DNA of 64,000 bases from a virus. Position 1 is the first letter of the stretch, and each line of letters opens with the position of its first letter. The position numbers and the translations under genes are program-made. This document shows, in pieces, positions 25 through 42,200 of the stretch. Location: the IMG/VR virus record IMGVR_UViG_3300044639_000880, positions 1-64,000 of that record. One strand, written 5' to 3'. Under the pieces are notes generated by a model that did no database searches, was not told where the DNA came from, and saw only the letters and a program-made list of their open reading frames with translations.

Positions 25-28
25 TGTT

Positions 29-543: not shown

Positions 544-555
544 TGGTACATATAG

Positions 556-563: not shown

Positions 564-629
564 CCATACCATTTCCTATATACCCTACAAGATCTTGTTT
601 TTGTTCTTATATATATGTATATTTAATAT

Positions 630-794: not shown

Positions 795-802
795 TATCTT
801 TG
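795..802 (+). promoter_or_regulatory. Bacteroidota-type -7 box for the GroES gene
   Basis: TATCTTTG matches TAnnTTTG and lies 22 bases before the GroES ATG. A TTG at 777-779 could act as a -33 element, but the spacing (15 bases) is shorter than usual. Confidence 0.5.
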
Positions 803-824
803 CACCTATAAATAAACCAACAAT

Positions 825-1091: not shown

Positions 1092-1153
1092 AAAATAAAG
1101 CCTAACTTTAAAGGCTTGTTCTATTGATATGTTTTTAGGGAAAACAGTAAAAG

Positions 1154-1189
1154 ATCCTCATTAAGAAATTTTTGAGGATTTTTTATTTT
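1154..1189 (+). terminator. Intrinsic terminator after groES
   Basis: ATCCTCA (1154-1160) pairs with TGAGGAT (1173-1179) and is followed by a T-rich tract to 1189. It separates the GroES unit from the fibre genes. Confidence 0.8.
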
Positions 1190-1214
1190 GTTATAATAAT
1201 AATATGTATATTAG

Positions 1215-1232
1215 TACTTTATTTATAAAGTA
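1215..1232. promoter_or_regulatory. Perfect palindrome before the fibre genes
   Basis: TACTTTAT and ATAAAGTA are perfect inverted repeats around a TT centre, ending six bases before the ATG of the first fibre gene. The same AAAGTATAAA string recurs in the duplicated promoter at 8582-8634. It could be an operator or an RNA hairpin near the start codon. Confidence 0.35.
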
Positions 1233-1238
1233 TAAAAC

Positions 1239-1835
1239 ATGGATCCAATAAGTTGGGATGCTCTAAAAGCAAGAGGTCAGATAATTAACTTAGCAGATAT
1301 CAATAGAGACAAGGATTATTTTGTTCTTGGTCATTATGATAATAGACGCAGGGAGTATCAATGGACTGACTATCCTTTATATCTAGTAAAGGCTTCTGAT
1401 ATTCTTGGACAAATAAATTTTGTAGATAAACAAAAAGTAAATTCAAACACAACATTCCAAACATTATTAAGTACATATATAGATGTACCTTTTATGACTC
1501 TTACAACTCAAGAGTTAGGTGGACCAACACCGGGAGCACTTGGAAATTATCAAATACATTTTTCAGCTAGCTATCAACTTTCAGATCTAGGATCTTCAGC
1601 TGAATTCATTTTAAATATTGATGGAGTAGATATACTTCCTACCGAGGTGATAGAGTCTCCAAATAATACAGGTATCTATAGAACAAGTATAATCTGGCAA
1701 GTAGATAGTTTACCAGCCAATAAAGTAATTAAAGTAAAATTCAAAATCATACCAATAACTCCTACTGTATCTACATTAACTGTGTTTAATAGAGTATTGA
1801 TGATTGATGGTGCTAACACATTAAATGTAATATAA
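1239..1835 (+). CDS. Short fibre or fibre-adaptor protein
   Basis: The 198-aa protein has an N-terminal domain (about residues 3-60) that recurs in the proteins at 1837 and 3575. It follows the pattern helix, then I-x(3)-D-x(4)-DY-x-V/L-G, then Y-x-L-x(3)-D/E-I/L-G. This is the expected arrangement of a virion-attachment domain shared by several fibres. The C-terminal part is short and rich in predicted beta strands and Thr/Pro/Ile, with no long repeats. A trimeric plug or adaptor is a reasonable guess. It is the first gene after the terminator at 1154-1189 and is followed one base later by the next fibre gene. The receptor or polymer it binds cannot be inferred. Confidence 0.6.
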   Translation: MDPISWDALKARGQIINLADINRDKDYFVLGHYDNRRREYQWTDYPLYLVKASDILGQINFVDKQKVNSNTTFQTLLSTYIDVPFMTLTTQELGGPTPGALGNYQIHFSASYQLSDLGSSAEFILNIDGVDILPTEVIESPNNTGIYRTSIIWQVDSLPANKVIKVKFKIIPITPTVSTLTVFNRVLMIDGANTLNVI

Positions 1836-9354: not shown

Positions 9355-9778
9355 GGATTTTAAAAAACCTACAGCTGAAGACTTAGGTTTACCGGAGAAT
9401 CTAGTAAATGATGTAATTGATTTTTACTGGGCTAAGGTTAGAAAACATATATCAGCTTTAGATTATGATAACATAAGCATTCCTAATCTAGGAGTTTTTA
9501 AAGTTAAGCATTGGAAAATAGATGAAACAGTAGAGAAGTACAAACTTCATATAAGCAGAATGGAAGGCAAGTTTACAGAGCATATAGTAAAAAGAGATTT
9601 AGAAGAAAGAATAGCTAAACTTCATCTGGTTAAAAAATCAGTAGAAGAAACTGAATTAAAATTTAAAGAAATAAGAGATGCTAGAAATAATAAAAACAAT
9701 ATGGAAGAACAAAGCCCTGATATGGGAGGGCTTTCTAAACAGTCTGATCAAGAAGGAACCTGTAGAGAAGATTCATAA
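9335..9778 (+). CDS. HU/IHF-like DNA-binding protein
   Basis: The 147-aa protein contains FYWAKVRKHISALDYDNISI followed by PNLGVFKVK (about residues 29-57). This is the helix followed by beta-arm entry found in the HU/IHF-like proteins of crAss-like phages. The rest is a charged helix. The start appears to be TTG at 9335: the next upstream in-frame stop is at 9314 and there is no ATG before the conserved core. Its last 101 bases overlap the start of the next gene in another frame. Likely role: DNA bending or head-associated DNA binding. Confidence 0.6.
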   Translation: MVPKKAKDFKKPTAEDLGLPENLVNDVIDFYWAKVRKHISALDYDNISIPNLGVFKVKHWKIDETVEKYKLHISRMEGKFTEHIVKRDLEERIAKLHLVKKSVEETELKFKEIRDARNNKNNMEEQSPDMGGLSKQSDQEGTCREDS

Positions 9779-9959
9779 TAAAAGAATGAAGATCTGCAGT
9801 ACTTGCCCAGAACTAGATCCACAAGGATCAAAATGTGTAATCACTGGTACTCAACCTTGTTGTGGTATTTGTGGTTGTAGCTTAGCTATGAAATTAAGAT
9901 CTATGGATTCTGAATGTCCACATCCTGATGGTCCTAAATGGAAAGCTGTAGAACTATGA
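9678..9959 (+). CDS. Small zinc-ribbon protein
   Basis: The 93-aa protein has a helical N terminus (WEGFLNSLIKKEPVEKIHNKRM) followed by CSTCP, CV, CCGICGC and a final ECPHP. The cysteine set fits one or two treble-clef or ribbon zinc sites. The N-terminal helix belongs to the family as I remember it, so I keep the start at 9678 although it overlaps the previous gene by 101 bases; an ATG at 9786 is a shorter alternative. Such proteins are common near packaging genes in Bacteroidota phages, but their function is unknown. Confidence 0.65.
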   Translation: MLEIIKTIWKNKALIWEGFLNSLIKKEPVEKIHNKRMKICSTCPELDPQGSKCVITGTQPCCGICGCSLAMKLRSMDSECPHPDGPKWKAVEL

Positions 9960-18463: not shown

Positions 18464-20101
18464 ATGGCAACTCCAGTATTAAACAATGGTATATTCTTGC
18501 GTGACACAAACTACAATGCTAGTTCTCACGTAGATTCATACCACTTAGTAAACATGTTAAAAGATGCAGAACCAATGGACTTAGGTCCGGTAGACATTTG
18601 GGCTATGGCTCAAAAAGTTGAAATGCCTCTTTACCAATTATCTTCATTTGGTGGTAAGAATATTATCATGGTTGAAAATGCTCGTGGTGAGTACAAATGG
18701 CAAACTCCTGTTAGTCAAGACTTACCATACATCATTGAAGACATTGAACCAGCTAACCTTACTAAAGGTGTTGATGGTACTCCTTTCAAAATTAAAGTTA
18801 ACAAGCGTGAGTTTGGTCATGGTGATATTATCACTTATGACAAATACAATGGTTGTGAGATGTACATTACTGCAGATGATATCCTACCTATGGGTGATGG
18901 TTTTATCTACACTGTACAATTAGTAAACAATGACAACTACAAGTTCCTTGAGAACAAGTATTTAGTATCTCAAACTAAATTATTCCGTAAAGGTTCTGCC
19001 CGCGGAGAGTATGGTGAGAGATTCTCTGATATTCAGACTCGCTCTGGATTCCGTGAGTTCTATAACTTCGTAGGAGGTGCAGAAGCTCATGTACATTATT
19101 CTATCTCATCTCGTGCTGACTTGATGTTAAAAGGTGGAATGGCTGCAGATGGTACAGTTCCTGTAACTGAGATCTGGAGAAACTTTGATACACAATTAGA
19201 TCCTGCTATTAGCAAGATTGAAGATGTAGCAAGCAAAATGGGTAAAGATTACTTAAAGCGTGCTATTGGTAATGGTACTTTAACCCGTACTTTCTTAACT
19301 ACTATGGAAGCAGCTCACTTAACTAAGATTGCTACTGACATCGAGACTTACTTAATGTGGGGTCATGGTGGACGTATTAAGCAAGATGGTCCAGATGACA
19401 TGCGTTTATCAGTAGGTTTATGGAAGCAATTAGACAACTCTTACAAGCGTGTGTATAACAAAGCTAGCTTTAGCTTAGAATTATTCCGTGCTGAGTTATA
19501 TAACTTCTATGCAGGACGTGTTGAATTCCAAGGTCCAGATCCTAAGAGACAATTAATTGTTCAAACAGGTATGGGTGGTATGAGATTAGTAAATGAGGCT
19601 ATCAAGCGTGAGGCAGTAAACACAGGTTTAATGATCAACATGGGTGATGGTAAAAATGGTGGAGGCGGTATTGGAGCTATCACTGGTCAAGGTATGGATC
19701 TAAACTTTGGATTCTCTTTCACTAGTTATGTAATTCCTTTCTTAGCTAATGTTAAGTTTGTTCTTAACCCAGCATTTGATAACTTACACACTAATGATAT
19801 TGAGAACCCAATCATTGATGGAAATCCATTAAGCTCTTATAGCTTTGTGATCTTTGATATCACTGATACAGGAAATGACAACATCTTCATGTTGAAATTA
19901 TCTTGGGATAATCAATTAAAGTGGTGGTACCAAAATGGTACTATGGATTACATGGGAAGAACTCAAGGGTTCCAATCTAGTGGACAATTCAATGGATACC
20001 GTGTTATGATGACTCAAACAATGCCAGCTATCTGGGTAAAAGATCCTACCAAGGTTCTTAAGATTGTAATGAGAAATCCTATCACTGGAGGATCATTCTA
20101 A
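18464..20101 (+). CDS. Major capsid protein
   Basis: The 545-aa protein has the order and features of crAss-like HK97-fold capsid proteins. The N-terminal region runs through DLGPVDIWAMAQKVEMPLYQL, a GSARGEYGERFSDIQTR segment lies near residues 180-197, and the C-terminal half is strand-rich. Its arginine codons are mostly CGT, unlike most neighbouring genes that use AGA, which suggests selection for high expression. It has a long A-rich leader and is followed by structured RNA. It assembles the icosahedral shell. Confidence 0.88.
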   Translation: MATPVLNNGIFLRDTNYNASSHVDSYHLVNMLKDAEPMDLGPVDIWAMAQKVEMPLYQLSSFGGKNIIMVENARGEYKWQTPVSQDLPYIIEDIEPANLTKGVDGTPFKIKVNKREFGHGDIITYDKYNGCEMYITADDILPMGDGFIYTVQLVNNDNYKFLENKYLVSQTKLFRKGSARGEYGERFSDIQTRSGFREFYNFVGGAEAHVHYSISSRADLMLKGGMAADGTVPVTEIWRNFDTQLDPAISKIEDVASKMGKDYLKRAIGNGTLTRTFLTTMEAAHLTKIATDIETYLMWGHGGRIKQDGPDDMRLSVGLWKQLDNSYKRVYNKASFSLELFRAELYNFYAGRVEFQGPDPKRQLIVQTGMGGMRLVNEAIKREAVNTGLMINMGDGKNGGGGIGAITGQGMDLNFGFSFTSYVIPFLANVKFVLNPAFDNLHTNDIENPIIDGNPLSSYSFVIFDITDTGNDNIFMLKLSWDNQLKWWYQNGTMDYMGRTQGFQSSGQFNGYRVMMTQTMPAIWVKDPTKVLKIVMRNPITGGSF

Positions 20102-26643: not shown

Positions 26644-28263
26644 ATGGCTTATTTTAATCATGCCTTCACCAAGATGTTTCTTGGAACAGGCGCAACTCGC
26701 GATCTTGTGAGCACAGGTGCAGCTGCTTCAGCAATAGTACCTTACAATCCTTATTCAACAGGTGGTATGATAACTACAATTGGAACACCAACTGTTGCAT
26801 TAGCAAACTTACCTGTCTATCCTAACAATCCTCACACAGGTTATTTTGGATTTTTTGATCCTAAAACTTACTTGTCAATTAACACAGGTCTTACTAATTA
26901 TGATTGCTGTCCAATTATATTAGCTAGTTCTTCTGTATTACAGAATGACAAAATTGGTCCTTTCCATGGTGGTTATCAAGAGACTAACAAGTCTAAAATG
27001 ATCAATCCTAAGTATGTTCAAAAAACATACCGTGTAGATTCATGTGTACCTAAACAAGCAATAGTATCTATTGGTAACACTCCAACAACAGGTACAGGTA
27101 TTATTACTTTTGCTGGATTAGTTGGTGGTACTGGTTACGCTAATGGTACTTATGTAGTGAATGTTACAGGTGGTACAGGAGTTGGTGCTAAATTTACTAT
27201 AACTGTAGCTGCTGGTATTGTTACTGGTGCTGTATTATATAATGCAGGTACAGGATACACTGTTGCTGATGTTCTTACTTTAGTTGGTGGAAACAATGAT
27301 GCTACAGTAACTGTTGCTTCAGTTTCTACAGGACCTGCTTTAAATCCAAATGGATTCCAAGGCGGAACTACAGATGCACAATGCTGCTTCCAGTTCTTAT
27401 GTGGTGAGACTTATTACTTACGTATTGATGTTAAAGGTTCTCCTGCATTACGTGCTTTAAATCACAATGCTTACCAAACTCTTGATGCTTATACAGGATG
27501 TTGTGCTGGTCCTACACCTACTGTTGTAGATTCGACTTTAGTGATGATCTCTTGGGCTGAAAAAGTACTTATTAATAACTACTTAAAACCGTTTATATTA
27601 CCTGTTGTATTTGATGAATTAGGTGTTGCTTGGTATGCTCCAGGAACAACTGTTGATCCTATTACAAATGCTGCTGTATTACCAGCTCAGTGGTGGACTG
27701 CTTATGTATCTCCGGGTCATACTGCTGGTCAATGTGCAGGTCTTCGTTTATTTGGTGCCTTTGTTGGTACTGTATTTGGAGATTGTACTTTTCAAATCAC
27801 TGACTTTTTTGAGAAAGAGCCTGTTAAAATTATTGCTTCAATGGTTGATTATACTGGAGATCCTTGTGTATTTGAAGGCATCTGTGTGTACAATGACTGT
27901 TTAGGTTTACAAGGTATGGGCTTTGGTGACCAAGTTGTAAAAGACTTAATCTTAGCTGAATCATACTTACAAAACTTCTTTGCTAACAATGATCTACGTA
28001 TCCGTGAGATTACTCAAGGTTATGACATGACAAGTGCTATTAACCGTAATGCATTATACACAAGATATTTCTTGTTGCATAGTGTTCCACGTTGGAATAA
28101 CCCAACTGGTGTGTTTGATGCAGACCGTTACATGTTAGAGATTATTACTACTGCGCCTAATGCAGCTTTAAATCAATTCTTAACAAACTGGTTAACATCA
28201 TGTGCTGATTGTGTTGAATTTGAAGCAAATACTTGCACACCTTGTGTACCAGTAAATAACTAA
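26644..28263 (+). CDS. Abundant virion protein with a Gly-rich inserted domain
   Basis: The 539-aa protein is interrupted near residues 147-234 by a Gly/Thr/Val-rich module (GGTGYANGTY, then TGGTGVGAKFTITV, then NAGTGYTVADVLTL). This repeat type is found as an exposed add-on in many phage structural proteins. The flanking parts carry several cysteines (CC pairs) and form the main body. Arginines are mostly encoded by CGT, as in the capsid gene, which suggests high expression. A terminator follows directly. It may be a major tail, sheath-like or head-coat protein. Confidence 0.6.
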   Translation: MAYFNHAFTKMFLGTGATRDLVSTGAAASAIVPYNPYSTGGMITTIGTPTVALANLPVYPNNPHTGYFGFFDPKTYLSINTGLTNYDCCPIILASSSVLQNDKIGPFHGGYQETNKSKMINPKYVQKTYRVDSCVPKQAIVSIGNTPTTGTGIITFAGLVGGTGYANGTYVVNVTGGTGVGAKFTITVAAGIVTGAVLYNAGTGYTVADVLTLVGGNNDATVTVASVSTGPALNPNGFQGGTTDAQCCFQFLCGETYYLRIDVKGSPALRALNHNAYQTLDAYTGCCAGPTPTVVDSTLVMISWAEKVLINNYLKPFILPVVFDELGVAWYAPGTTVDPITNAAVLPAQWWTAYVSPGHTAGQCAGLRLFGAFVGTVFGDCTFQITDFFEKEPVKIIASMVDYTGDPCVFEGICVYNDCLGLQGMGFGDQVVKDLILAESYLQNFFANNDLRIREITQGYDMTSAINRNALYTRYFLLHSVPRWNNPTGVFDADRYMLEIITTAPNAALNQFLTNWLTSCADCVEFEANTCTPCVPVNN

Positions 28264-28286
28264 GAATTTATTAACCTATAAAGATT

Positions 28287-28320
28287 AAAGGGAGGTTGCT
28301 TTGCTTCCTCCCTTTTTTTC
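28287..28320 (+). terminator. Intrinsic terminator
   Basis: AAAGGGAGG (28287-28295) pairs with CCTCCCTTT (28307-28315) and is followed by a T-tract ending at 28319. It closes the head/adaptor transcription unit. Confidence 0.85.
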
Positions 28321-28323
28321 TTT

Positions 28324-28331
28324 TATATTTG
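28324..28331 (+). promoter_or_regulatory. Bacteroidota-type -7 box after the terminator
   Basis: TATATTTG matches TAnnTTTG and lies only four bases after the terminator and eight before the ATG at 28339. The cysteine-rich block may thus have its own promoter with an extremely short leader. Confidence 0.5.
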
Positions 28332-28338
28332 TAAGATT

Positions 28339-28902
28339 ATGGCTAGACACGTATTAAGTTTGGAAATTCCAGACACTCTCAATAAATGTATTTTTAGAAT
28401 AGTAGATACTAGTGTATATGCACCTGATGTAGAAGTTACTTGTCCTTTATTGCAGATAACGCTTCCGGGATTTATACATCCTGTAAATATTGCACCTCCT
28501 CAAATTAATCCAGGATTTAATGCTAATCTAACAGCATGTGATTTAGGTATTCAAAGTGCAGATTGTGGTACAACTTTTTATGACATTCCTGATGGAATAT
28601 ATATTGTAAAATATAGTGTTGAACCAAAAGATCTTGTGTATGTAGAATACAATCATTTAAGAATGACTTGTGCTTTAAACAAGGTTAGACAGATCTATTG
28701 TGAATTAGATATGGGGGCTTGTTTGCCTTCAGAAACTATAATGCTTAAGTTACAAAAAATAAGATTAATACAACAACAATTACAAGCTGCTAAAGCATAT
28801 GTAGAAGATTGCCATAACCCAAAAGGAGGAATGGAACTATATAAATATGCAGTAAGTCAGCTAGATAAATTATCATGCGGAGCAGTCTGCAAAACTTGTT
28901 AA
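28339..28902 (+). CDS. Conserved-looking virion protein, cysteine-containing
   Basis: The 187-aa protein has a beta-rich N-terminal domain (residues 5-115) including DIPDGIYIVKYSVEP and VYVEYNHLRMT, and a helical C-terminal part. It has about a dozen cysteines. The YVEYNHLR element recurs, as far as I remember, in large Bacteroidota phages next to fibre genes. It opens the cysteine-rich block and is probably an adaptor for the large protein downstream. Confidence 0.6.
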   Translation: MARHVLSLEIPDTLNKCIFRIVDTSVYAPDVEVTCPLLQITLPGFIHPVNIAPPQINPGFNANLTACDLGIQSADCGTTFYDIPDGIYIVKYSVEPKDLVYVEYNHLRMTCALNKVRQIYCELDMGACLPSETIMLKLQKIRLIQQQLQAAKAYVEDCHNPKGGMELYKYAVSQLDKLSCGAVCKTC

Positions 28903-28922
28903 ACCAATAAAACCAACATAAA

Positions 28923-29111
28923 ATGAGTGCATGTTTAAATTGTGGAGTATCCATGGGATGTAGTTGTCAAAGAAGAGTTGCTAGTGATGGCAAATCTGTA
29001 TGTGGAACTTGTATAGCAGAATATGAAAAAAAAATAAAGGGCACCGCTGTCCAAAAACCAACTAATAGCACAGCACCAACTAATGTAAATGTATTTTATA
29101 AAGCACCTTAA
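28923..29111 (+). CDS. Small zinc-ribbon-like protein
   Basis: The 62-aa protein has C-x2-C (CLNC), C-x-C (CSC) and C-x2-C (CGTC) sets within the first 32 residues, followed by a short charged helix and a disordered tail. A zinc site is likely. It precedes the cysteine-rich giant and follows an AACCAACA leader (28911-28918). Function unknown. Confidence 0.6.
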   Translation: MSACLNCGVSMGCSCQRRVASDGKSVCGTCIAEYEKKIKGTAVQKPTNSTAPTNVNVFYKAP

Positions 29112-29124
29112 ATAATTAAAACAA

Positions 29125-32100
29125 ATGGCATGCTATAAACTCTCCTCATGTACAGCAGGTAATACAACAATACTTTGGTCTAATGATCCTGGTTTTGCAG
29201 GATTAGTTGGACAAACAATTCAACTTACACCTTATTCTGGTATATGTCTTACTGTAGAGTTAATAGAAACACCATGTATTTGTCAACCAAATAGTCCTGA
29301 TGTCAATGCAACTCAGGCCTCATCTTGTGAATGCACCAGTCCTAATGATTGTTATAAATTAACAGAGTGTAATGATTCAATACCTCCTATCTATGTAAGT
29401 AACAATCTTAATCCTTATATAGGATTATCTATTGCAGTAGAAGAATATCCAGGTTATTGTTTTAATGTAACTGGTGTTGAGGATCCAGCAGAGTGTGAGG
29501 CTAACTTACCTAATATTCAAGTTACATGTGTTAATCTATGTACTTGTGATCTTTTTTGTTACGAGCTTACTAACTGTTTAGTTGCTGATACAATTATAGT
29601 TCATACATCTTTAACTCTTACTTTAAATACAGTTATTGCAATAACTCCTGCTGTAATTGCGCCTGGTGGAAATAACTGCTGGACAGTAACAGATCTTTAT
29701 GTTCAGCCTTGTGATATTAGTACAGGAGTACTTGTAACCAGTATCATCCCTTACGGAGTAAGTGGTTGCGCTGCTTGTGGAATACCTCTGCCTTGTTATA
29801 CATTAGCTGATTGTTCTGGTAATATATTACCTTTTAATACAAATTCTAACTTGGCTGCCTATATAGGACAAGCTGTTCATTTAACTGAATATGGAGGTTG
29901 TGCAGGTCCTTGCTTTTTAGTAAGTCTTAATGCCGGACCTTGTCCAGTTGTTGAACCAGCAACGGTTACTCTAGGTTGTGTACTTTGTCCACCTTGTAAT
30001 CAAACATGTTATAAATTAATTGATTGTGAAACTAGAATTCAATATGCTATACTATCAAGTCCTACAGCAAACGGAGTTGACTTAAGCTTACTTGTTGGTC
30101 AAAGTATTGGCAAAGTATGTCTTAGTCCAGAACCTGTAGAATGTACTACTGGTTGTTGGGAAGTACAAATTTCAAATACTTGTGGAGGTGCTATATCAGC
30201 TTATGTATATAATATTTATGATGATTGCAATGCTTGTACAAATAGTTGTTATGTTTTTCAAAATTGTCAGACGGGTGCGCTAGGTCCTATAATTAAGTAT
30301 ACAGTTCCTAATCCTAATGGTTTACCTAATCCTAGTACTTTAACAGGAGCAGTAGGTTCTTTATGTTTTACGGCTCCTACTGGATGTCTTACAGGTTGTT
30401 ATCAATTATTACCACAACCAGGTGCTTCTTGTGTAGGTAGTATTGATTGGTCAACGGCTGTAAGTTATACACCATATAATGATTGCTTTAGCTGTTTACC
30501 AAAGTGTTATCTACTTACAGAATGTGCTCCCGCAATTTCAGTACCTATAGTAGTAAATAATGATCTTAGTCTGTATGTAGGACAAGTAGCTAAAATATGT
30601 GATTCATTAGGAGAATGTCATTGTTATAATGTAGAAATTTCACAGAGTTGTAATGGAGCTATCACTATTGATAATGCTAGTGCTAGTTTTACAACTTGTG
30701 AAGAATGTAATTCATGCGAGTGTCCTCCAGGCTATACTAAAGTAGGAGAGTTTTGTCAGAAGATAACAAGTATTCCAGCTGTAGCAAATCCTGTAATATA
30801 TTCAACAGGTCCTGGTAGTTTAAATACTGCCTTCTATGGAATACTAGGAACAAACTTTTATGGTAATATTTCAGCTTTACCTTTTCCATTAACTGCAGTT
30901 ACCGGCCCAGATCGTTTTCAAGATGCTTCTGCTACAAATGTAGTAGCTGTAAATAATATTATTGGTGTATGGGGTCCTGGTGCAGCATCAAGATTAAACT
31001 CTGTTGGTGTATGGACTACAGTTAATCCTAATCCTTTATCACAATGGATTGGTTTTACAGAATGCATTACTATCCCAACTACTGGTATTTATTGTATAGG
31101 TATTGGTGGCGATGATGCTGTAAGAATAAAAATTGATGGTGTATTGGTTGCTATAGCTAACATAGGCTTATTTGATTTTCGATACTGGCATGTATTTGAA
31201 ATCAGTCTTACTGCAGGAACTCACATAATCACCTTAGAAGGTTATAATACCGCAGGTAATACAGCTTTTGCTGCAGAAATATATAATGTAACTTCAGCAA
31301 CTCTTCAAACTTATACTACATCTGTTCAGGTACAGTTAGCTACAATATTTAGTACTTTTCCTAAAAGAATAAGTGGTACTTTTCAAACAGGTGAAACCTC
31401 TGGTTATTCATGTCCTCCCGGTTATGCTCTTAATTCATGCGGTGATAAACTTGTTTGTAGTTTAATTGAAACCATTCCTTATGTAGAATGCGCGGCTACT
31501 TATTTAGTAACAAGTTGTGAACCAGGTGTAGAACCTTTTTTAACTAATACTGACTTATCCGCGTATATAGGATCAACCTATAAAGCTTGTATAACCAATC
31601 CTACATATTCTACAACTTGTTTTATTTTAAAAGATTGTAATAGATTAGTTTCTGATATTGTTACTAATACTAATCTAACAAGCAGCTTATGGCAAATAAT
31701 TAAGGTTGATGGTTATCCAGGATCTTGTTTTATTGTAACAGGTGTTCCTGTAGGAAATCCTTGCATTGCTCCTATCCCTGTAGTAGCTTCATCACCTGTT
31801 GAAGGTTCTTGTAATTGTCCAGGAGCTCAAGTTCCTTGGCCAAATGGTTGTTATTGTGTAACTGTAGAAGAAGTTGCTTCAGAAGTTGCTATAAATTTTT
31901 TAGGAGTTTTTACAACAGAATATGTAGCATGCGAAGATTGTTTACAAGTTTGTTATGTTCTTACTGATTGTAATGATGCTTTAGATCCTGTTACTGTTTG
32001 TAATGATTTAGAAAATTATATAGGACAAGTTATTAAAATAGAAGGTTGTGGTGATATTTGCTGGCAAGTATCTCTTGCATTAAATTGTGATTCTAATTTA

Positions 32101-33414
32101 GCTATACCAGGCAAGATAACGCTTTATGAAGATTGTGAAGCTTGTCTTCCTCCTCTTCCGCCAGTTCCACCACCTTATGATTTACATTTAAGAAAAATTA
32201 AACCAGGTTGGAAGAGTCCTAATAGTTGTTATACTTTAGATTATATAGAAAGAATTAACTGTACTTTTGGACAGCAAATTTATAATGAAATGCTTGTTGC
32301 AAGATATGGTATAACCGTATGTTGTGATGAGGATGTCAATAAGTGGGATATTAAGAAACAAATGTTAGATCTTGATATGCTTAAAGATCCTAATCTTTGT
32401 AAGTCAACTTTATGCTGTTGTCCTGCTCCTTGTTTTATAGAAGCTTTTGTAACAGTGCTTCCTTTCTGTGGAGTTCCTAATATAGTATCTGTAGTTTTTA
32501 ATCTACCTTGTCCTGCGCCTGTATTAATTGATGTGGAAATTGAGGTACTTAGTGAACCTGCTGCATGTCGTTGCTTTTCTGTAGAAGTATTAGATGAACC
32601 GGTTAGTATTAGTTATATTGATTGTTGCTGTGTAGTTCAAACACAAGTAATAGATGCAGTAGGTATTTATCCTATATGTTCTTCTACAGCGCCTGTATCA
32701 ATAAATAATCCATCAAGTATTGTTGTTACTGACAGTGGTTTATGCGGTGTATCTCCTTTATGTACACCTCCACCTTTTCAAGTATGTTCATGTTGGTCAA
32801 TCTATAATCCAACAGTTGCAACTTTAGGATTTAGTATTGCTGCTATTTGCCCAGCTGGTCCAGATCCTGTAGAACAAGCAGGAACAATTGCTCCTCTAGT
32901 AACTATATATAATTGTTCTGTTGCACCTCCTGTAGTTGCTAATGGTTTAATAGTTACAAATACAGGACCTTGTAGTGATTACTGTGGTCCTATTCCTGCT
33001 GTATGTGTATGTTATTTACTACATGCTACTGAATCTTGTGCTTATACTTATCCTGATTGTAATGGTCGGCCAGCAAGTGGAACTTTAGTAATTGGTGATA
33101 ATTATATATGTGCTTATAGTATGCCTCTATTAGATCCAGCTTGTGCAGATTTTGTTACAATAGCTGCTACAGCAAATGTTTGTGTTGATGGTCAATGTGG
33201 ACCACCTTGTATATGTTATGTAGTAACAGTACCGTCTGATGGTAATCAGCATTTTATTACCATAACAGATTGTTTAGGTAATCTTATTATTAATACACCA
33301 TATTTTGGAGGTACATATTATATTTGTTCTCAAAATAGTATTTTAAGTGATCCAAACGTGTCTTATTCACCTACATCATTTGGATGTGGGCCAGGTCAAT
33401 GTGTAGAACCATAG
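29125..33414 (+). CDS. Cysteine-rich repeat protein with PA14-like module
   Basis: The 1429-aa protein contains about ten units of 45-60 residues that start CY-x-L-x-x-C, have a central N-D/N-L-x-x-YIGQ-like strand and end C-W/F/Y-x-V-x(5-8)-C. After the seventh unit lies a CPPGYTKVGEFC element and a domain (about 551-722) resembling PA14 carbohydrate-binding domains (WIGFTECITIPTTGIYCIGI, then GGDDAVRIKIDGVLVA, then LTAGTHIITLEGYN). Three further units follow. A W-x-IK-x-x-x-LDLDML-x-DP-x-LC element near 1070-1095 and further Cys-rich strands end the protein. It is probably a cell-surface-binding fibre stabilised by disulfides or metal. No enzyme motif is seen. Confidence 0.7.
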   Translation: MACYKLSSCTAGNTTILWSNDPGFAGLVGQTIQLTPYSGICLTVELIETPCICQPNSPDVNATQASSCECTSPNDCYKLTECNDSIPPIYVSNNLNPYIGLSIAVEEYPGYCFNVTGVEDPAECEANLPNIQVTCVNLCTCDLFCYELTNCLVADTIIVHTSLTLTLNTVIAITPAVIAPGGNNCWTVTDLYVQPCDISTGVLVTSIIPYGVSGCAACGIPLPCYTLADCSGNILPFNTNSNLAAYIGQAVHLTEYGGCAGPCFLVSLNAGPCPVVEPATVTLGCVLCPPCNQTCYKLIDCETRIQYAILSSPTANGVDLSLLVGQSIGKVCLSPEPVECTTGCWEVQISNTCGGAISAYVYNIYDDCNACTNSCYVFQNCQTGALGPIIKYTVPNPNGLPNPSTLTGAVGSLCFTAPTGCLTGCYQLLPQPGASCVGSIDWSTAVSYTPYNDCFSCLPKCYLLTECAPAISVPIVVNNDLSLYVGQVAKICDSLGECHCYNVEISQSCNGAITIDNASASFTTCEECNSCECPPGYTKVGEFCQKITSIPAVANPVIYSTGPGSLNTAFYGILGTNFYGNISALPFPLTAVTGPDRFQDASATNVVAVNNIIGVWGPGAASRLNSVGVWTTVNPNPLSQWIGFTECITIPTTGIYCIGIGGDDAVRIKIDGVLVAIANIGLFDFRYWHVFEISLTAGTHIITLEGYNTAGNTAFAAEIYNVTSATLQTYTTSVQVQLATIFSTFPKRISGTFQTGETSGYSCPPGYALNSCGDKLVCSLIETIPYVECAATYLVTSCEPGVEPFLTNTDLSAYIGSTYKACITNPTYSTTCFILKDCNRLVSDIVTNTNLTSSLWQIIKVDGYPGSCFIVTGVPVGNPCIAPIPVVASSPVEGSCNCPGAQVPWPNGCYCVTVEEVASEVAINFLGVFTTEYVACEDCLQVCYVLTDCNDALDPVTVCNDLENYIGQVIKIEGCGDICWQVSLALNCDSNLAIPGKITLYEDCEACLPPLPPVPPPYDLHLRKIKPGWKSPNSCYTLDYIERINCTFGQQIYNEMLVARYGITVCCDEDVNKWDIKKQMLDLDMLKDPNLCKSTLCCCPAPCFIEAFVTVLPFCGVPNIVSVVFNLPCPAPVLIDVEIEVLSEPAACRCFSVEVLDEPVSISYIDCCCVVQTQVIDAVGIYPICSSTAPVSINNPSSIVVTDSGLCGVSPLCTPPPFQVCSCWSIYNPTVATLGFSIAAICPAGPDPVEQAGTIAPLVTIYNCSVAPPVVANGLIVTNTGPCSDYCGPIPAVCVCYLLHATESCAYTYPDCNGRPASGTLVIGDNYICAYSMPLLDPACADFVTIAATANVCVDGQCGPPCICYVVTVPSDGNQHFITITDCLGNLIINTPYFGGTYYICSQNSILSDPNVSYSPTSFGCGPGQCVEP
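29131..32090 (+). repeat. Ten divergent cysteine-framed coding repeats
   Basis: Units start near residues 3, 70, 146, 222, 296, 371 and 458 with CYKL, CYKL, CYEL, CYTL, CYKL, CYVF and CYLL. After the PA14-like module come TYLVTSC, CFILKDC and CYVLTDC. The repeats differ widely at the DNA level, so they are old duplications rather than recent copies. Confidence 0.65.
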
Positions 33415-33465
33415 ATGATTAATTAAAATAATAAAATAATAAGTATATTTAACAATAAATAAAAT

Positions 33466-34932
33466 ATGAAACCTTTAAACATAGATAAGACCGGATGTAG
33501 TAATATATCATCTAACTGCGTAACATGGCAGGGGCCAGATATTGAATGTATAAATTTATGTAAGGGAGATTCCGTTACAGAAGTTGTATACAAAATGGCT
33601 TTAGAGCTGTGTAAATTGATGGATACCTTTGATTTAACAAATTATGATTTAAAATGCTTTTCAAGTGGAGTATGTCAACCACAAGATTTTAAAGATTTTA
33701 TCAACATACTTATTAACAAAGTATGTCTTATACAAACCTGTTCTGGTTGTGCAGATCCTTGTTCACCAACACCTGTAGTAGTTACTGCTCAGTCTGTTCT
33801 TGGAAGTTCTGATTCTCAGTATGTGCCTATTGCTAAAGAGTTTCAGTATACTAATAGTTTAGGTGATCTAGTTACTACTATGTTAGTTAGTGATTATGTT
33901 CAAGCTATTGGAAATAAAGTATCTATTTTAGTTAATTCTACAACTGCAATACAAGAACAGTTGTTAGATCATACTTTAAGAATACAAGCTTTGGAAGATG
34001 CGCCAGCTCCAGTATTTACATTACCTCTTATTACAAATAGTGATGGAGATCAAATGTCTTTATCAGAAGCTACTCAAAATCTTCAAACTGCTTTTTATCA
34101 GTTAGAAACTGCTACAGGAACACCAAATGAAATTTATACTAACATTGCTAAGCAATCAGGCAGTCTTAATACAGCTGCTAGTTTATCTGTACCAAATGCT
34201 ACTATGGCATCTTTACCAGGATGGAATACTACTGTTGTAAATCAAGCTGATAGTGTTGGTAATATTTGGCAAACTGTTCTTGATATGCGTCTTGCTTTAC
34301 AGAACTTAATAACTAATTATATTCCTAGCGAGTGTAGATCAATTTCTATAAGTCTTATTGCAACATATGCTACTGATACAATAACTTTGTTTATGACAGG
34401 AGTTATTCCTTCAAGCTTTACAAATACTATACCTGGCGGTACACCTTTTACAATAACTGATATGTACGGTAATGTATTAGTTGTTAATATTAATATACCT
34501 ACTGTTATAAATAATCCAGAAGGTTTTGCTATTTCTATTACAGGAACAAGAATTAATCCAGCAGGTAATTTAGCTATTACAGCTGAACCTAGTTTTACAA
34601 ATAATACATCAGGATCTGAATGCAAATCAATTCTTCAATATCTTATAAGTAATCAAGCATCTTGTCCTGCAGTTACCTATGTACCTACAAGCACAAGTAT
34701 TGAGTTTTCATTTCTTACAGATACCGGTAACAAGATTTACACTGCTGAATTATGGGCTCCAGGAGCTGTAGCACCTACTAGTAGTCAATCATTTACTTCG
34801 ACAGCTGTTGGTACAATAACTAGTGTATTTGCAACATTAACTGCAAATACAGCTTACAGACTTAGAATATTAATAAATATAAATGGTATAATCACAACTT
34901 GTCCATTTACTGCAGTAAATACATTAATTTAA
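33466..34932 (+). CDS. Virion protein with coiled-coil middle and Ig/FnIII-like end
   Basis: The 488-aa protein has a Cys-rich N-terminal domain (CSNISSNCVTWQGPDIEC), a middle with QEQLLDHTLRIQALE coiled coil (about residues 165-180), and a strand-rich C terminus ending with an Ig/FnIII-like domain (about 405-488). The NCVTWQGPDIECINLCKGD pattern recurs in the product of 34944 (SKCVIYTGEDIPCFSIETGN). The two are therefore likely paralogous at their N termini. Probably a fibre or baseplate-like component. Confidence 0.6.
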   Translation: MKPLNIDKTGCSNISSNCVTWQGPDIECINLCKGDSVTEVVYKMALELCKLMDTFDLTNYDLKCFSSGVCQPQDFKDFINILINKVCLIQTCSGCADPCSPTPVVVTAQSVLGSSDSQYVPIAKEFQYTNSLGDLVTTMLVSDYVQAIGNKVSILVNSTTAIQEQLLDHTLRIQALEDAPAPVFTLPLITNSDGDQMSLSEATQNLQTAFYQLETATGTPNEIYTNIAKQSGSLNTAASLSVPNATMASLPGWNTTVVNQADSVGNIWQTVLDMRLALQNLITNYIPSECRSISISLIATYATDTITLFMTGVIPSSFTNTIPGGTPFTITDMYGNVLVVNINIPTVINNPEGFAISITGTRINPAGNLAITAEPSFTNNTSGSECKSILQYLISNQASCPAVTYVPTSTSIEFSFLTDTGNKIYTAELWAPGAVAPTSSQSFTSTAVGTITSVFATLTANTAYRLRILININGIITTCPFTAVNTLI

Positions 34933-34943
34933 AATAAAAAGAA

Positions 34944-36155
34944 ATGACTACTAATTGTTCAAAATGTGGAACTTGTGATTGTGATTGTATACCTCAGGGT
35001 CTTACAACACCTAACTATTGTCCATCAGATCTACCACCTTGCCCAGATCCTAGTCCATGTAATGAGACTTTTGATAGCAAGTGTGTTATATATACAGGAG
35101 AAGATATTCCTTGTTTTAGTATTGAAACAGGAAATACTGTAGAAGAGGTTATAACAAATATGACTTCTCTATTACAACCTTTATTGTGTTTAAATTGTAC
35201 TATAATAAATATCCCGGCTAATGATGCTTTACAAGTACCGGTCAATCAAATCATGAGTTGGAATATTGTTCCTGGTGCTACATATTATGATGTGTATTTT
35301 GGAACAAATCCTACTACTCCTCCTTTGGTGGCTGCCGGCCAAATTAGCACTGCCTATACACATCCTTATCCTTTAGTTCCCAATACAGATTATTATTGGA
35401 AAGTGATACCAGGAAATAATGCAGGCAGTGTAAATGCTTGCCCTATTTACCATTTTAAGACTAAGGAATTACTTTGTGTAAATCCTTTATCTTATATGCT
35501 TGATTATGTTATGAGTGAACAACCATCAGGTAATGTACTAAATGTAGAAACTCTTGTTGAATCAATAAATGAGTTTCTTGACAATGGTGAGTTAATAACT
35601 AATTGTAATTTCTGTTGCCCTGATTGTACAGATACTCATAGATATGTATTAGCATCTGCTCCGGTATTTGCTACATATTATAATGATTTTTATGATATTA
35701 ATACTTGTCCTCCTGTATGTTGTATTGAAGTAGATGCATCATTAACAGCTCTTACTACTGTACTTGCTCCAGGATCACCTACATTAGCTGCTGCTTTTAA
35801 AGCTGTACCTCCTCCAACTAATTGTTGTGGAACTAATTTTAGTGAATGTAGTGAAAGCTTAAAAATAGCATTAGGCACATCACGCGATGCAATCTTTAAA
35901 ATACTAGGTGTAGTAGAAGAATCTACAATCAACCTTAGTACAGAACTTTGTATTCTTGCAACTTTCTTAAATGGATTACCTACAGCTGTTACACCTTTAC
36001 AAAAAGCATTAATCATTGCTGCAATTCTTAATAAAGGTTTTGTTGTAGATTGCCGTCCAGAAGGTACAATCATATCAGGATTATTAAAATATAAAGAATA
36101 TGTAGTTGCCGCAGAAGATGGCTGTCTATGTTATATACCATGTGTAATATCTTAA
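34944..36155 (+). CDS. Cysteine-rich virion protein with a fibronectin III-like domain
   Basis: The 403-aa protein has an N-terminal CSKCGTCDCDC cluster, a CVIYTGEDIPC segment shared in form with the previous gene, and then a fibronectin-type-III-like domain (about residues 95-175). That domain includes MSWNIVPGATYYDVYFGTN and PNTDYYWKVIPGNNAGS. The C-terminal half is helical and Cys-containing. FnIII domains in phage structural proteins are usually exposed. A role in adsorption is likely. Confidence 0.65.
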   Translation: MTTNCSKCGTCDCDCIPQGLTTPNYCPSDLPPCPDPSPCNETFDSKCVIYTGEDIPCFSIETGNTVEEVITNMTSLLQPLLCLNCTIINIPANDALQVPVNQIMSWNIVPGATYYDVYFGTNPTTPPLVAAGQISTAYTHPYPLVPNTDYYWKVIPGNNAGSVNACPIYHFKTKELLCVNPLSYMLDYVMSEQPSGNVLNVETLVESINEFLDNGELITNCNFCCPDCTDTHRYVLASAPVFATYYNDFYDINTCPPVCCIEVDASLTALTTVLAPGSPTLAAAFKAVPPPTNCCGTNFSECSESLKIALGTSRDAIFKILGVVEESTINLSTELCILATFLNGLPTAVTPLQKALIIAAILNKGFVVDCRPEGTIISGLLKYKEYVVAAEDGCLCYIPCVIS

Positions 36156-36165
36156 ACTAATAAAT

Positions 36166-36882
36166 ATGTTAACACCAGCAACAATAACAGTAAATTTCAC
36201 AGCCAATTATGCAGGCGCGCATAGAATATGTTGGAGACAATGTAATGTAGGTTCTTATGTATGTACTAATGTAGTATCATGTGTAGGAGGCGGCAATGTG
36301 TGTAGTGCTACTATTTCTATAATGGTAGATCCAGAAAGTTGTACACCAATATGCTTTGAGGGATATATTCAAGCAACTTGTAATCCTGAGAATTCTTCTG
36401 TAGGCCAAGTACCTTGGTCAACTACTTTTACACCAACTCCAACTTGTAGTATGTATTCTATTACTTGTACAAGTCCTCCACTTAATCAACCTTGTGGAGT
36501 AATTTCTGCAGCTACAATGGGTTTAGATTGTAATGGTACACCAAGACCAGAGGTAGGACCTATTACTGCTGCTACTTCTGTATATGTATGTGCTACTGGA
36601 TTAATTCCAAATCTTCCTTTAGGTTATGAGATGACACTTTTTGATGGATGTTGTACTGATTGTGAACAATACACTATTACAATTATGCCTGGTATTATGC
36701 CTAGTGAATTAGATGGATCTTCTATTTATTACATAGATTGTGCAACAAAAGAACTTATCAGAATAGACTTAACAGGTAGTGTGTCTTATACTTTAACAGC
36801 TTGTATGGTTACCGGATCTATTAATCTGTATTTAACTCCGACTGTTAGTGGTATAATTACACAAGGTATACCTTGTCCATAA
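36166..36882 (+). CDS. Cysteine-rich virion protein, unknown
   Basis: The 238-aa protein is beta-rich and Cys-rich (about 20 cysteines) with no signal peptide. It has no membrane segment. It is the last gene of the cysteine-rich block, followed by a hairpin and a terminator. It shares composition, not clear motifs, with the 1429-aa protein. Confidence 0.55.
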   Translation: MLTPATITVNFTANYAGAHRICWRQCNVGSYVCTNVVSCVGGGNVCSATISIMVDPESCTPICFEGYIQATCNPENSSVGQVPWSTTFTPTPTCSMYSITCTSPPLNQPCGVISAATMGLDCNGTPRPEVGPITAATSVYVCATGLIPNLPLGYEMTLFDGCCTDCEQYTITIMPGIMPSELDGSSIYYIDCATKELIRIDLTGSVSYTLTACMVTGSINLYLTPTVSGIITQGIPCP

Positions 36883-37588: not shown

Positions 37589-38260
37589 ATGACAACAATA
37601 GGTGAAGCTATCTCAAGAGTTCGTAATACAATCAAAGGTGTAAAAGAAGATGCCTTTCTTACAGATAGATTTATATACAGTCTTCTTATTAAACATGCTA
37701 ATTATATTGTCCGCAAGTTGGACAATGAGAATAAGATCATGCGTATCCAAAGCTTATTTGAGAAAATACCTTGTGTAGATCTTATTGAAGTAAGTACTAT
37801 TGACGCGTGTTGTGCAGGTGTGAAAACCAACTGTACTATAATGAGAACTAAAGAACATATACCAGAACCTATGGAAGGATCTGAAGGACCATTAATTAGA
37901 ACAGTTACTTCTTTAGATGGTTCTATTATCATGAATAATACAAATCCAAGTACTTATGTATACATGACTGGCCAACCTACTTTCAAATATAATAAAACTA
38001 AGTACTACTGGTATCTAGAAGGACATTTATATTTTCCAAATATTGAGTGGGAAGGTGTAAGAGTAGATGGTATATTTACATCATCTACAAAGAAGTTTCA
38101 CTGTGATCAAGATCCGTGTGCACCAAGACAGGATGATAGATTAGCAGTTCCAGAATTTATATTTGCTGAAGTAGAACAATTAGTTTTGAAAGATCTTGCA
38201 TTTATGTTGCAAACACCAACAGAGACACAAGACGATAAAATGAATCCTTTAAGATCTTAA
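37589..38260 (+). CDS. Ring-type tail protein
   Basis: The 223-aa protein begins MTTIGEAISRVRNTIKGVKED and then FLTDRFIYSLLIKHANYIVR, a pattern I associate with ring proteins of the crAss-like tail barrel. The body is beta-rich with cysteine pairs (DACCAG, DQDPCAP). It precedes another ring-type gene and the muzzle-type gene. Identity as a ring protein is from pattern and order. Confidence 0.65.
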   Translation: MTTIGEAISRVRNTIKGVKEDAFLTDRFIYSLLIKHANYIVRKLDNENKIMRIQSLFEKIPCVDLIEVSTIDACCAGVKTNCTIMRTKEHIPEPMEGSEGPLIRTVTSLDGSIIMNNTNPSTYVYMTGQPTFKYNKTKYYWYLEGHLYFPNIEWEGVRVDGIFTSSTKKFHCDQDPCAPRQDDRLAVPEFIFAEVEQLVLKDLAFMLQTPTETQDDKMNPLRS

Positions 38261-38264
38261 ATCC

Positions 38265-39293
38265 ATGAGTTATAACTATACCCTTAGATACAGAACATTT
38301 GACCAGCTTCTTGATGCTGCCAGAATAGATCTTACTCAATATGATTTAACTAATTATATTGAACCTCAGCAATTGATTAAAGTTGCTAAAAGAGTTAACT
38401 ATGATCTTGGATTAAGAATCATGGGTACAAAAGAAACTTTATTAGAAGTAAAAAAAGGAAAAGTAAGATTACCCACAGACTTTTATGTATTGAATTATGC
38501 ATTAGTTTGTGATAATGTAACTGTGCACGAGCCCGTAAGCCAAGGCACTTTTATAGAAGAGAGACCTGTAGGAATTCCTACTTATAAATCAATTGGTCCA
38601 GCTGTTATCAACTCTTGTACAGATGGTACTGTTAACTGTCAGACCTGTGGTATTCCTTGTAATACTTGTACTTGTCAACAACTTCCTGCAGCATGTCCTG
38701 CTTTACCGGATGATCAGAGTTATTGTAAAACTCCTAGACTTGAGTTAAACTGTAAAGGTGAGAGCTTTGAATTAGTGCAGATTGTTCATGGTACAACGCG
38801 TACTTATAGAAGGATGTGGCCATTAAGACTTATTACAAATAATGAAACTATTGCTTGTGATTGTCCTAATCTTTATGTAAAGTCTGCAGATCATGCTTGG
38901 ATTCAAGGTGATTTCTTATTTACTAATTTAGAAACAGCTAATATTTATATTAGTTACCAAGGTCAATTAGAAGATGATAATGGAAACTTATTAGTTCCGG
39001 ATCATGATTTACTTAATGAGTATTATGAATATGCTATTAAGCAACGGATTCTAGAGAACTTAATTATGAATGATGAGCCTGTAGGTCAGAAGTTACAATT
39101 AGTTGAAGCAAGATTACGTGTAGCAAAAAGTGCAGCTAATGCTCTTGTGCACACTCCCAATTTTGCAGAGATGCGTGAGATGTGGTGGACTAACAGAAAA
39201 GCTCAGTATGGTAAATACTATGAGGCTTTTAAGTCTTATCCGTGGAACCAACAAAGTAATCCTAATGTTAATGGTCAAATGAATAGATTCTAA
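38265..39293 (+). CDS. Ring-type tail protein, muzzle neighbour
   Basis: The 342-aa protein begins with a helix (TFDQLLDAARIDLTQYDLTN) and has a Cys-rich loop near residues 120-160 (CQTCGIPCNTCTC). The C-terminal half is helical. It lies directly before the muzzle-type gene, the place of R1-type ring proteins in described crAss-like phages. The loop may bind zinc. It shares one base with the next start codon (TAATGG). Confidence 0.65.
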   Translation: MSYNYTLRYRTFDQLLDAARIDLTQYDLTNYIEPQQLIKVAKRVNYDLGLRIMGTKETLLEVKKGKVRLPTDFYVLNYALVCDNVTVHEPVSQGTFIEERPVGIPTYKSIGPAVINSCTDGTVNCQTCGIPCNTCTCQQLPAACPALPDDQSYCKTPRLELNCKGESFELVQIVHGTTRTYRRMWPLRLITNNETIACDCPNLYVKSADHAWIQGDFLFTNLETANIYISYQGQLEDDNGNLLVPDHDLLNEYYEYAIKQRILENLIMNDEPVGQKLQLVEARLRVAKSAANALVHTPNFAEMREMWWTNRKAQYGKYYEAFKSYPWNQQSNPNVNGQMNRF

Positions 39294-42200
39294 TGGCAGA
39301 GCAAAATAACAGTACTAGCAGCAATGACTCAAAGAGTTTTGATAAATCACTTAACAAAGATGTTAATGATTTTCACTTGCCCACCAATGAATGGAGCGGA
39401 GCTAGAAATGCTATAAACAATTCTATCACCGGTGATTTAGGTAAATTAGGTAATGAACCCGCAAACTTATTATGTCTGACAACAGATTTAAAGTATCCTA
39501 TAATTGGGTTCATTCATATTATAGAAGATAAATGGGCTGTGTTTTCTACAGACAGTGTTAATTCTGAAATTGGTCTGTTTGTAGAAAGTAATTGTGGTGT
39601 TCCAGATCCTATAAAGAACCCTGCATACAGTGTTGTTGTTAATGCAGCCTGTCTTAATTTTAAACCGGAGAACCTGATCATAGGTGTTAGCCGTGCTACA
39701 AGTACTTGTACATACAAATTATATTGGGATGATGGTCTTAATCCATCTAGAGTACTTGAGATTGATGTAGATAATCCTCTTAACAATCTTCCTTTTCTTC
39801 CTCCTCCAGCGCCTCCAGGAACTAACAATCCTAACAGTCCTATTCCTTGGGTACAGAACTGTGTTGATTCAAATGGTCCAGCTCCTGGTGGATGTATCAT
39901 CTGTACCAACACTCCGGTTCTAGATTGTGATAAGTTAAGACTTGCTCAATTTATGAGTCCTATTTGTCCTAGAGTAGCTAATGGTGTATCTGGTGGGAAT
40001 CTTTTAAATGGTTCTTACCTGGTTGCTATGGCGTATGCTATCAAAGGCCAAAAAATAAGTGACTGGTATGTATCAAATGTGCAATCTCTATGGACCCAAG
40101 GAAATTCATCAGGATCACTTGATGTCTTTATAGATAGCATTGATCTAGATTTTGATGAGATTCTAGTTACTCTTATCTCAGTAGTTAATCAACAAGCTGT
40201 TGGTAGAGATGCTGGTATATACAGCACACGTCAAACAAGATTAAGCTTTGATATTATTAATGATGCTTGGCCGGCTGTTCCTGTGGAGCAACTTCCAATC
40301 ATGACTCCTATTGTAGATAAGTCAGATGCTATGTATGCAGTAGGTGATTACTTAATACGCGTAGGACCAACAAACAAACAAGACTTTAATTATCAACCCT
40401 TAGCTAATCAGATAGTAGCTAAGTGGCAATCTGTAGAATATTCCGGAGACTATTATGCAAAAGGTGGTAATAAAACTAACTACATGCGCGATGAAGTATA
40501 TGCATTTTTCATCCAGTGGATTTATGATACAGGTGATAAGTCTGCTTCATATCATATCCCAGGTAGACCGGCTTTTCCTAATGATATTACACCAGCTAAT
40601 GTTTTAAATGCTTTTACCGGAGATACTCTTAATTGGCAAGTAGAAAATACAGCAACAGCTATTCCTATAGCTCCTGTACCTCAATCCGATGGTGGAGTTC
40701 TTATAGGAGAAGGTTATATGGGATACTGGGAATCAACTGAATTCTATCCAGATAAAACACCTCAAATATGGAATGCTGATTCACAATGTTGGTCATCATT
40801 AACTCCTAATCTTATACCAAATTGTACAGAACCTATTCCTCCAATTCCTTATCCGGGAACTGTTGCAGGAAATGCTTCATACAATTTATGTGGGACTCCT
40901 ATTAGACATCATAAGTTTCCTGAAGACAATCTTACTGCTGAGACTAACCGATACAATGCAGGCTTGGGCACCACAATAAGAATCATGGGAGTTAAGTTTG
41001 AGAATATCAGAGCTCCTAGAGATAACTCAGGTAATCTTATTCCTGGAATTATTGGATATAGAATATTGAGAGGCACGCGTAATGGTAACAAGACTATTAT
41101 TGCTAAGGGTATGATTAATAACATGCATGAGTATACTGTACCAGGAAGTACTAAGAGTCACTACATGCCTAACTATCCTTATAATGATCTTGAGGCTGAT
41201 CCATTCTTAAGTACTACTAAAACATTTACATCATCTTCCTTTAATCCACTAGGTAATGGTGGTGGTGTTCAAGGAGATACACCCTTTCCAGGAGGTTTTG
41301 GTAGTTTGCAGTTTAGTCCAAACTATGTAACTTTTCATTCACCAGATACTAATTTTAAAGATCCTTTTTTATCAGCTAAAGAACTTAGAATATATCAAAA
41401 TATTCATGGTGATGTTACTGGTAAATTTGAATTATCTGAGAAGCATCCTAGAGAAAAGCTTATGACAGATTATGTATTTTTAGTATCTGCTATAGGTGGT
41501 TTAGGAATTGCTGCTTTAAACTTAAATGGTGAAAGAACAACTAATACTAATGTACCAAATTATCAAGGATTTTCTTATAGAGAGTTGTATTCTAAGACAG
41601 CTGATTATGATTTAGACCATGGGGGAACTAATACTTTACAACCAGGTGGCATACAAACCTATGGCCCAGCAATGCCGAATGCTGGAACATTAACTCAAAC
41701 TACGGGTGCAACCACAAATGTAAATGAGAATACTACTGGTGATGTTACAAATTCTGCACCTATTAAAGCCGGTTTTGCTTCTGGACCAGATCCTGACTTT
41801 TGGGATACACTTCTAATACAAGGTCCTTTAATAACGCAACTTGGATTCTTTAATGCATATGCGGGCACAGTGGGTTTGAGCAATCTTATAGGTGCTACTA
41901 CTGGTTCAGGAGGTCCGGCTGATAGTTTAAAAACTCAAGCTGGTTTAATGAATAATGATGCGGCTATCTTTAATGCGGGTGGCTCTTGGGCATACGGTAC
42001 TACTAATATATCTTACAAGGATGGTCAACAAAATAGAATTCCAAGTTTTTTAAATACAGTTGTAGCACTTCCTACATTCTTAAATTACTTTAGTGATGGT
42101 ACTGATAGTTTTATAAGATTGATTTTAGCTATTTTAAGATATAGAGATTATGCTGTAAGATATCATTCACATGGTTTTTATAATAAGACAGATTTAAAAC

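Follow-up and report, generated by a model that had tools for sequence, protein, structure and literature searches.

A cysteine-framed modular protein in a crAss-like phage as a candidate tail adhesin

We analysed a 64,000-nt stretch of viral DNA (positions 1-64,000 of the record IMGVR_UViG_3300044639_000880, which measures 72,823 bp as a whole; hereafter the window) around the gene of a 1429-aa cysteine-rich protein, P0001, which a preliminary description had proposed as a candidate adhesion rod of unknown architecture. The phage is crAss-like (Crassvirales), because its major capsid protein (MCP) matches the Crass_capsid family and its ring genes match CrAss_Ring_2 and CrAss_Ring_1 (Table 1). 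The explanation that we favour, with some reserve, is that the 1429-aa protein is a modular, disulfide-stapled and exchangeable host-adhesion protein, borne by the tail close to the collar. The proposed adhesive role gained support from a presumed tail-appendage locus, a PA14-type domain and N-terminal two thirds that have diverged in comparison with conserved neighbours and a conserved anchor domain. As for the rod, one predicted fold was obtained for the repeated unit, and the units flank a lectin-like domain as linkers in tandem, with no sign of a rigid rod.

The strict motif C[YWF]x[LVIF]xxC occurs nine times in the protein, and a profile of nine units gave nine full matches and a partial one. 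Since a profile built from the units themselves is circular, each unit was omitted in turn and compared with 500 cysteine-preserving and 500 full shuffles of that same unit. The left-out units scored 14.0-49.6 bits, each higher than any of its 1000 shuffles; unit 6 had the lowest score (14.0 bits against a shuffle maximum of 12.1). The repeat is confirmed as real, and the approximately ten cysteine-framed copies described before resolve into nine full units and one partial unit. This count applies to about the first 70% of the protein; the last ~280 residues are made up of another Cys-rich repeat, present four times. The second motif had been given as C-W-x-V-x-x-C, of which the cysteine and the valine hold. 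The tryptophan is found in only 49 of 95 units and the spacing to the next cysteine varies, so that the motif reads C[W/F/Y]xV, a variable stretch and then C. The units form two blocks, 1-7 and 8-9, with the PA14-like domain in between, and the N-terminus (MACYKLSSC...) begins directly in unit 1, with no signal peptide as judged by eye.

Structure prediction, which had been suggested as a check for a common fold, indicates that the units probably share one small beta fold. A single unit (unit 9), modelled by AlphaFold2 with 94 unit sequences, was predicted with confidence as five short strands and a terminal helix (predicted local distance difference test, pLDDT, 85.8), and units 7, 8 and 9 display an identical order of secondary structure in a 645-aa model covering residues 458-1102. 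The unit fold found no structural match in the PDB, and the anchor and unit profiles retrieved nothing relevant among PDB sequences. The best Foldseek match of the unit in BFVD was A0A516LFR9 (template modelling score, TM-score, 0.71; 35% identity; probability 1.00; E 0.011), an uncharacterised viral protein.

The stretch between the two blocks of units was mostly modelled at pLDDT 70-93, and its predicted model has the PA14 beta-sandwich fold according to Foldseek, which matched several PA14 structures with probabilities of 0.97-1.00. The matches include the Marinomonas PA14 sugar-binding domain (E 4e-4, probability 0.99), CBM6E (probability 1.00), an RTX-adhesin PA14 domain (3.5 A over 93 columns) and the Epa and Flo adhesins. 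At the sequence level, PA14 (PF07691) was matched with E=0.033 and 14.4 bits, under the gathering score of 24 bits, and relatives of the protein reached E-values of 1e-4 to 0.03 and at best 22.5 bits, also under the cut-off. The segment GDD-V-R-x-K-I-D-G is similar to PA14 sequences. Two weak matches of PA14-like stretches to PHROG_773 (E 0.017 and 3e-5), labelled 'major head protein', are probably misleading, the annotation having been transferred via the shared domain.

Relatives were collected from viral contigs in scans that used the full-length protein and its alignment as well as ring protein 2 and the anchor, a conserved domain that follows the units. The 72 anchor-bearing open reading frames (ORFs), many of them from overlapping loci of shared contigs, were clustered at 90% identity into 34 groups, of which L053 and L055 are near-identical to each other. 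Their display part is PA14-like in 13 groups, a beta-propeller in 10, both in two and neither in nine. The propeller is of the Ycf48/BNR type (Pfam PSII_BNR, 3e-12 in L031). Between 0 and 12 units occur per protein, every one of them N-terminal to the anchor, and all anchor-bearing relatives except one have at least one unit. The locus is kept as well: the counterpart of the 1429-aa gene starts 155-889 nt after the homologue of the gene at 28339 in 31 of the 33 groups in which the upstream gene is visible, and most of the loci that extend far enough have the ring protein 2 gene (R2) downstream. Anchor and locus are thus maintained across the 34 groups while the N-terminal part varies, and this combination of a conserved virion-proximal part with a variable display part is the pattern of a tail-locus adhesin. 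The C-terminal Cys-rich repeat, type 2 in Table 1, also makes up parts of separate ORFs elsewhere (L012:13521-14204 and L023:5354-6841).

A comparison with the related locus L005 reveals the same contrast at close range. The MCP and the 28339 protein are 99.6% and 99.5% identical to their L005 counterparts, and together with the products of 34944 and 36166 they span 97.5-99.6%, whereas residues 1-1000 of the 1429-aa protein are 42-86% identical and residues 1001-1300 92-100%.

The cysteines of the unit, numbered after unit 9, had been expected either to oxidise after lysis or to bind metal. Over 127 distinct units, C1 and C46 are both present in 96, both absent in 22 and single in nine (1 + 8); among 74 units under 45% identity the counts were 51/1/6/16 (p=1.7e-10), the two cysteines being absent together in 16. 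The optional C17 is present only alongside C33 (6/0 vs 23/66, p=5e-4). Because C1 and C46 are lost together, the unit sequences favour a disulfide over metal for this pair, and for the four core cysteines (C7, C37 and the terminal CxxC) metal binding could still apply. These four are near-invariant (127, 124, 122 and 118 of 127 units), as would be expected of a zinc tetrathiolate in domains that fold in the reducing cytoplasm, with disulfides confined to the optional pairs, and a zinc-ribbon-like ORF adjoins the gene. We nevertheless regard a zinc-binding unit as unlikely, since in two diverged first units C37 has gone along with one cysteine of the CxxC and C7 and the other CxxC cysteine are kept, a joint loss that fits disulfide partners better, like the paired loss of C1 and C46, and since no Pfam zinc-ribbon family matches the 1429-aa protein.

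Disulfides have been described in the virions of phage Milano (PMC10811340) and of phiCrAss001, where the tail barrel and fibre hubs are stabilised by them (PMC10172136). It is a long shot, in our estimate, that the units are synthesised in the cytoplasm as a chain still reduced and flexible, which oxidation hardens after lysis, with the adjoining 62-aa zinc-ribbon-like protein keeping thiols reduced or metal-loaded until release; if true, this would be a redox-timed assembly system for phage adhesins. Thioredoxin and glutaredoxin families were not found in the seven records searched, with positive controls detected, and an Erv1/ALR search carries no weight, since it drew a blank in its control genomes as well.

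We favour a tail-attached adhesin with disulfide-stapled spacer or display units because of the position of the gene, the swapping of modules and the lectin-like fold. The anchor, predicted to be helical, would fix the protein to the virion, and the nine or ten small beta domains N-terminal to it would, as their sequences suggest, carry internal disulfides outside the reducing cytoplasm. Stapled in this way, the units could space out and stiffen the chain and present the PA14-type lectin domain, which, judging by its fold, may bind surface glycans. Host recognition would change by gain, loss or diversification of units and by swapping of the display module (PA14-like, beta-propeller, both or neither) on a constant anchor.

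Several observations weigh against this proposal. The presumed muzzle protein (39293-44689, + strand) is only 58% identical to that of L005, against 94-99% for the capsid and ring genes nearby; the muzzle protein has diverged too, and therefore divergence alone is no proof of receptor binding. In none of the proteins scanned does PA14 reach the Pfam cut-off, and the full-length TM-scores to PA14 structures are low (for a query of 645 aa). Confidence in the 645-aa model is moderate (pLDDT 75.8, predicted TM-score 0.49), and the anchor is its poorest part (pLDDT 33-62). The cysteine p-values treat units as independent, and the 45% filter lessens their relatedness but leaves some inflation. The position at the collar rests on gene order, because no profile link to the phiCrAss001 hub proteins THA or THB was found. 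Finally, single-sequence tblastn and motif-seeded scans found no relative in the cultured-phage collection searched; the same scans found none in plasmids or in 84,980 prokaryote genomes.

The same protein might instead be a mechanical collar or spacer, its disulfide-crosslinked appendages stiffening the tail with no role in receptor binding and the PA14-like domain being structural only. High cysteine content across the entire gene cluster, the disulfide-linked hubs of crassviruses (PMC10172136), the tails of Milano, which are disulfide-crosslinked throughout (PMC10811340), and the nine of 34 groups with no recognised display domain would all suit such a scaffold. We consider it rather unlikely, since N-terminal divergence beside near-identical neighbours and exchange between PA14-like domains and propellers is a pattern of host recognition and not of scaffolding. 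The attachment site could also be the head, as phiCrAss001 bears head fibres with Ig-like tips (PMC10172136) and the PHROG matches of the neighbour at 26644 and of the PA14-like stretches are labelled 'head'. These labels are weak matches via widespread domains, however, and the head-fibre genes of phiCrAss001, gp21 and gp29, lie ahead of its MCP gene, gp32. By contrast, the 1429-aa gene comes after the MCP gene and beside the ring genes, in the interval where phiCrAss001 has its tail hub genes; a head fibre or capsid decoration therefore seems a poor candidate. Very little credence can be given to a protein secreted or displayed on the host surface during infection and absent from the virion, as has been proposed for the type IX-sorted proteins of a 'Cryophage' (PMC7468147). 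A PA14-domain gene with a type IX secretion system sorting signal is known from another phage (PMC7468147), but here the N-terminus starts in unit 1 with no recognisable signal peptide, the C-terminus is a Cys repeat and the position among structural genes is conserved.

Table 1. Positions in the window of the 1429-aa gene, its parts and the genes discussed with it
Feature	Position	Residues	Strand	Basis or remark
MCP (crassvirus)	18464..20101		+	PF23898 Crass_capsid E=6.3e-30, above cut-off; genome identification
187-aa Cys-rich protein at tail-hub (THA) position	28339..28902		+	homologue of Cellulophaga phage phi4:1 gp056
Unlisted 62-aa zinc-ribbon-like ORF	28923..29111		+	C-x2-C-x5-C-x-C-x11-C-x2-C; conserved after 28339 homologue
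1429-aa Cys-rich modular protein P0001	29125..33414		+	ATG start; 120 Cys (8.4%)
Unit 1	29131..29346	3-74	+	profile match, leave-one-out
Unit 2	29350..29550	76-142	+	profile match, leave-one-out
Unit 3	29557..29781	145-219	+	profile match, leave-one-out
Unit 4	29794..30003	224-293	+	profile match, leave-one-out
Unit 5	30007..30243	295-373	+	profile match, leave-one-out
Unit 6	30247..30501	375-459	+	profile match, leave-one-out; weakest
Unit 7	30505..30720	461-532	+	profile match, leave-one-out, 645-aa model
Short CPPGY (EGF-like) motif, then PA14/CBM6-like lectin domain	30721..31404	533-760	+	sub-cut-off Pfam, model, Foldseek
Partial unit	31501..31617	793-831	+	profile match 793-822; 793-835 by iterated profile
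Unit 8	31618..31830	832-902	+	profile match, leave-one-out, 645-aa model
Unit 9	31951..32160	943-1012	+	profile match, leave-one-out; unit modelled alone
Conserved ~77-aa putative anchor domain, two predicted helices	32191..32421	1023-1099	+	conservation, model; function inferred
C-terminal repeat type 2, copy 1	32566..32769	1148-1215	+	Cys-rich repeat
C-terminal repeat type 2, copy 2	32785..32991	1221-1289	+	Cys-rich repeat
C-terminal repeat type 2, copy 3	33004..33204	1294-1360	+	Cys-rich repeat
C-terminal repeat type 2, copy 4	33208..33411	1362-1429	+	Cys-rich repeat
488-aa presumed tail fibre	33466..34932		+	conserved N-terminus, diverged remainder
403-aa presumed fibre or adaptor	34944..36155		+	N-terminal domain common to 33466 product
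Crassvirus ring protein 2 homologue	37589..38260		+	PF25702 CrAss_Ring_2 E=5.3e-19, above cut-off; genome identification
Ring protein 1 homologue	38265-39293			PF24228 CrAss_Ring_1 E=1.2e-8, above cut-off

The 1429-aa gene lies in its presumed tail-appendage locus between the homologue of a virion protein, encoded at 28339, on one side and the ring-protein genes on the other; a third ring gene is suspected at 25366. The virion protein is phi4:1 gp056, detected as such by mass spectrometry (MS/MS). Neither the 28339 protein nor the anchor was assigned as THA or THB, because profile comparison links neither of them to the phiCrAss001 proteins gp38 and gp39: homology of the 28339 protein to THA (gp38) was unsupported (hhalign probability 0.3%), as was that of the anchor with THB (gp39; 0.2%), and homology of the anchor to THA found no support either. 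The gap of ~200 nt upstream of the 1429-aa gene was considered as a regulatory region, and alignment revealed a conserved ORF instead. This 62-aa ORF, with six spaced cysteines, fills the gap, is conserved directly after the 28339 homologue in ~35 distinct sequences and stays beside it also in L021 and L015, with the unit gene 3 kb away. Weak zinc-ribbon matches are its sole functional clue, and it did not match gp39 or the Lbo-JY46 and phi4:1 candidates; it may belong to the hub or act in assembly. A search of the locus for RNA families and for sites resembling promoters or terminators gave nothing beyond chance expectation.

Downstream, the 33466 product is 92-96% conserved with L005 and L006 in its first 50 aa and 26-62% identical beyond residue 100, and the N-terminal domain that it has in common with the 34944 product recurs in a 'tail fiber protein' of a Leptolyngbya phage. 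The nearest annotated MCP, at 27% identity, is that of the cyanobacterial Leptolyngbya phage Lbo-JY46 (L007, PP438436.1), which also carries a homologue of the 28339 protein; this suggests that Lbo-JY46 is a cyanophage with a crass-like virion. Cysteine makes up 6.4% of the residues in the gene cluster 26644-36882 and 0.75% in the remaining listed ORFs of the window. A separate 93-aa ORF (9678-9959, + strand) has 8.6% Cys and a zinc-ribbon-like CSTCPEL...C spacing.

Among known systems, phiCrAss001, with its tail barrel, its hubs THA and THB and its fibre gp22, resembles this phage in its crass-like capsid and ring proteins and in a gene interval ahead of R2 and R1, its tail-hub genes lying between MCP/AUX and R2 (PMC10172136). 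Its hub and barrel proteins are stabilised by disulfides, and here a Cys-rich 187-aa gene stands at the THA position, but the proteins lack the profile homology discussed above and the phiCrAss001 interval, as read, holds no such array of units. Adhesins of the tail locus that carry tandem beta domains are already known, as in the BACON repeats of crAss-like phage tail proteins, which are likewise expanded by duplication and suspected of contacting glycans (PMC6949934). The present units differ in being cysteine-framed and in having no match among solved folds, and the BACON profile of Pfam did not match the 1429-aa protein at E<=1. The PA14/CBM6 domains of Marinomonas MpAFP, the RTX adhesin, Epa and Flo are alike in predicted fold, with relatives of our protein reaching 1e-4 on PF07691, and differ in that every member scanned here falls under the Pfam cut-off. 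In Agrobacterium phage Milano, receptor-binding and tail proteins are held by disulfides and structural proteins are enriched in cysteine (PMC10811340), but their content is 2.1%, against the values of the fibre-locus cluster and the 1429-aa protein given above, and many of the Milano bonds join subunits, whereas those proposed here would lie inside small repeated units. Neither Pfam nor PHROGs nor the cultured phages searched contain the unit domain family, which, together with the cysteine pattern and the module swapping, appears new to the libraries searched.

Some uncultured crAss-like phages have what is probably a system for binding the host, based on a domain absent from Pfam, PHROGs and the PDB, in which modules (the number of units, a PA14-like domain or a propeller) are swapped naturally upon a fixed anchor. 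The disulfides of phiCrAss001 and Milano pose the question of how virion parts so rich in them can be made while the cytoplasm is reducing; the present system allows concrete predictions on this that can be tested, and may provide a handle for tying crAss-like contigs to host glycans.

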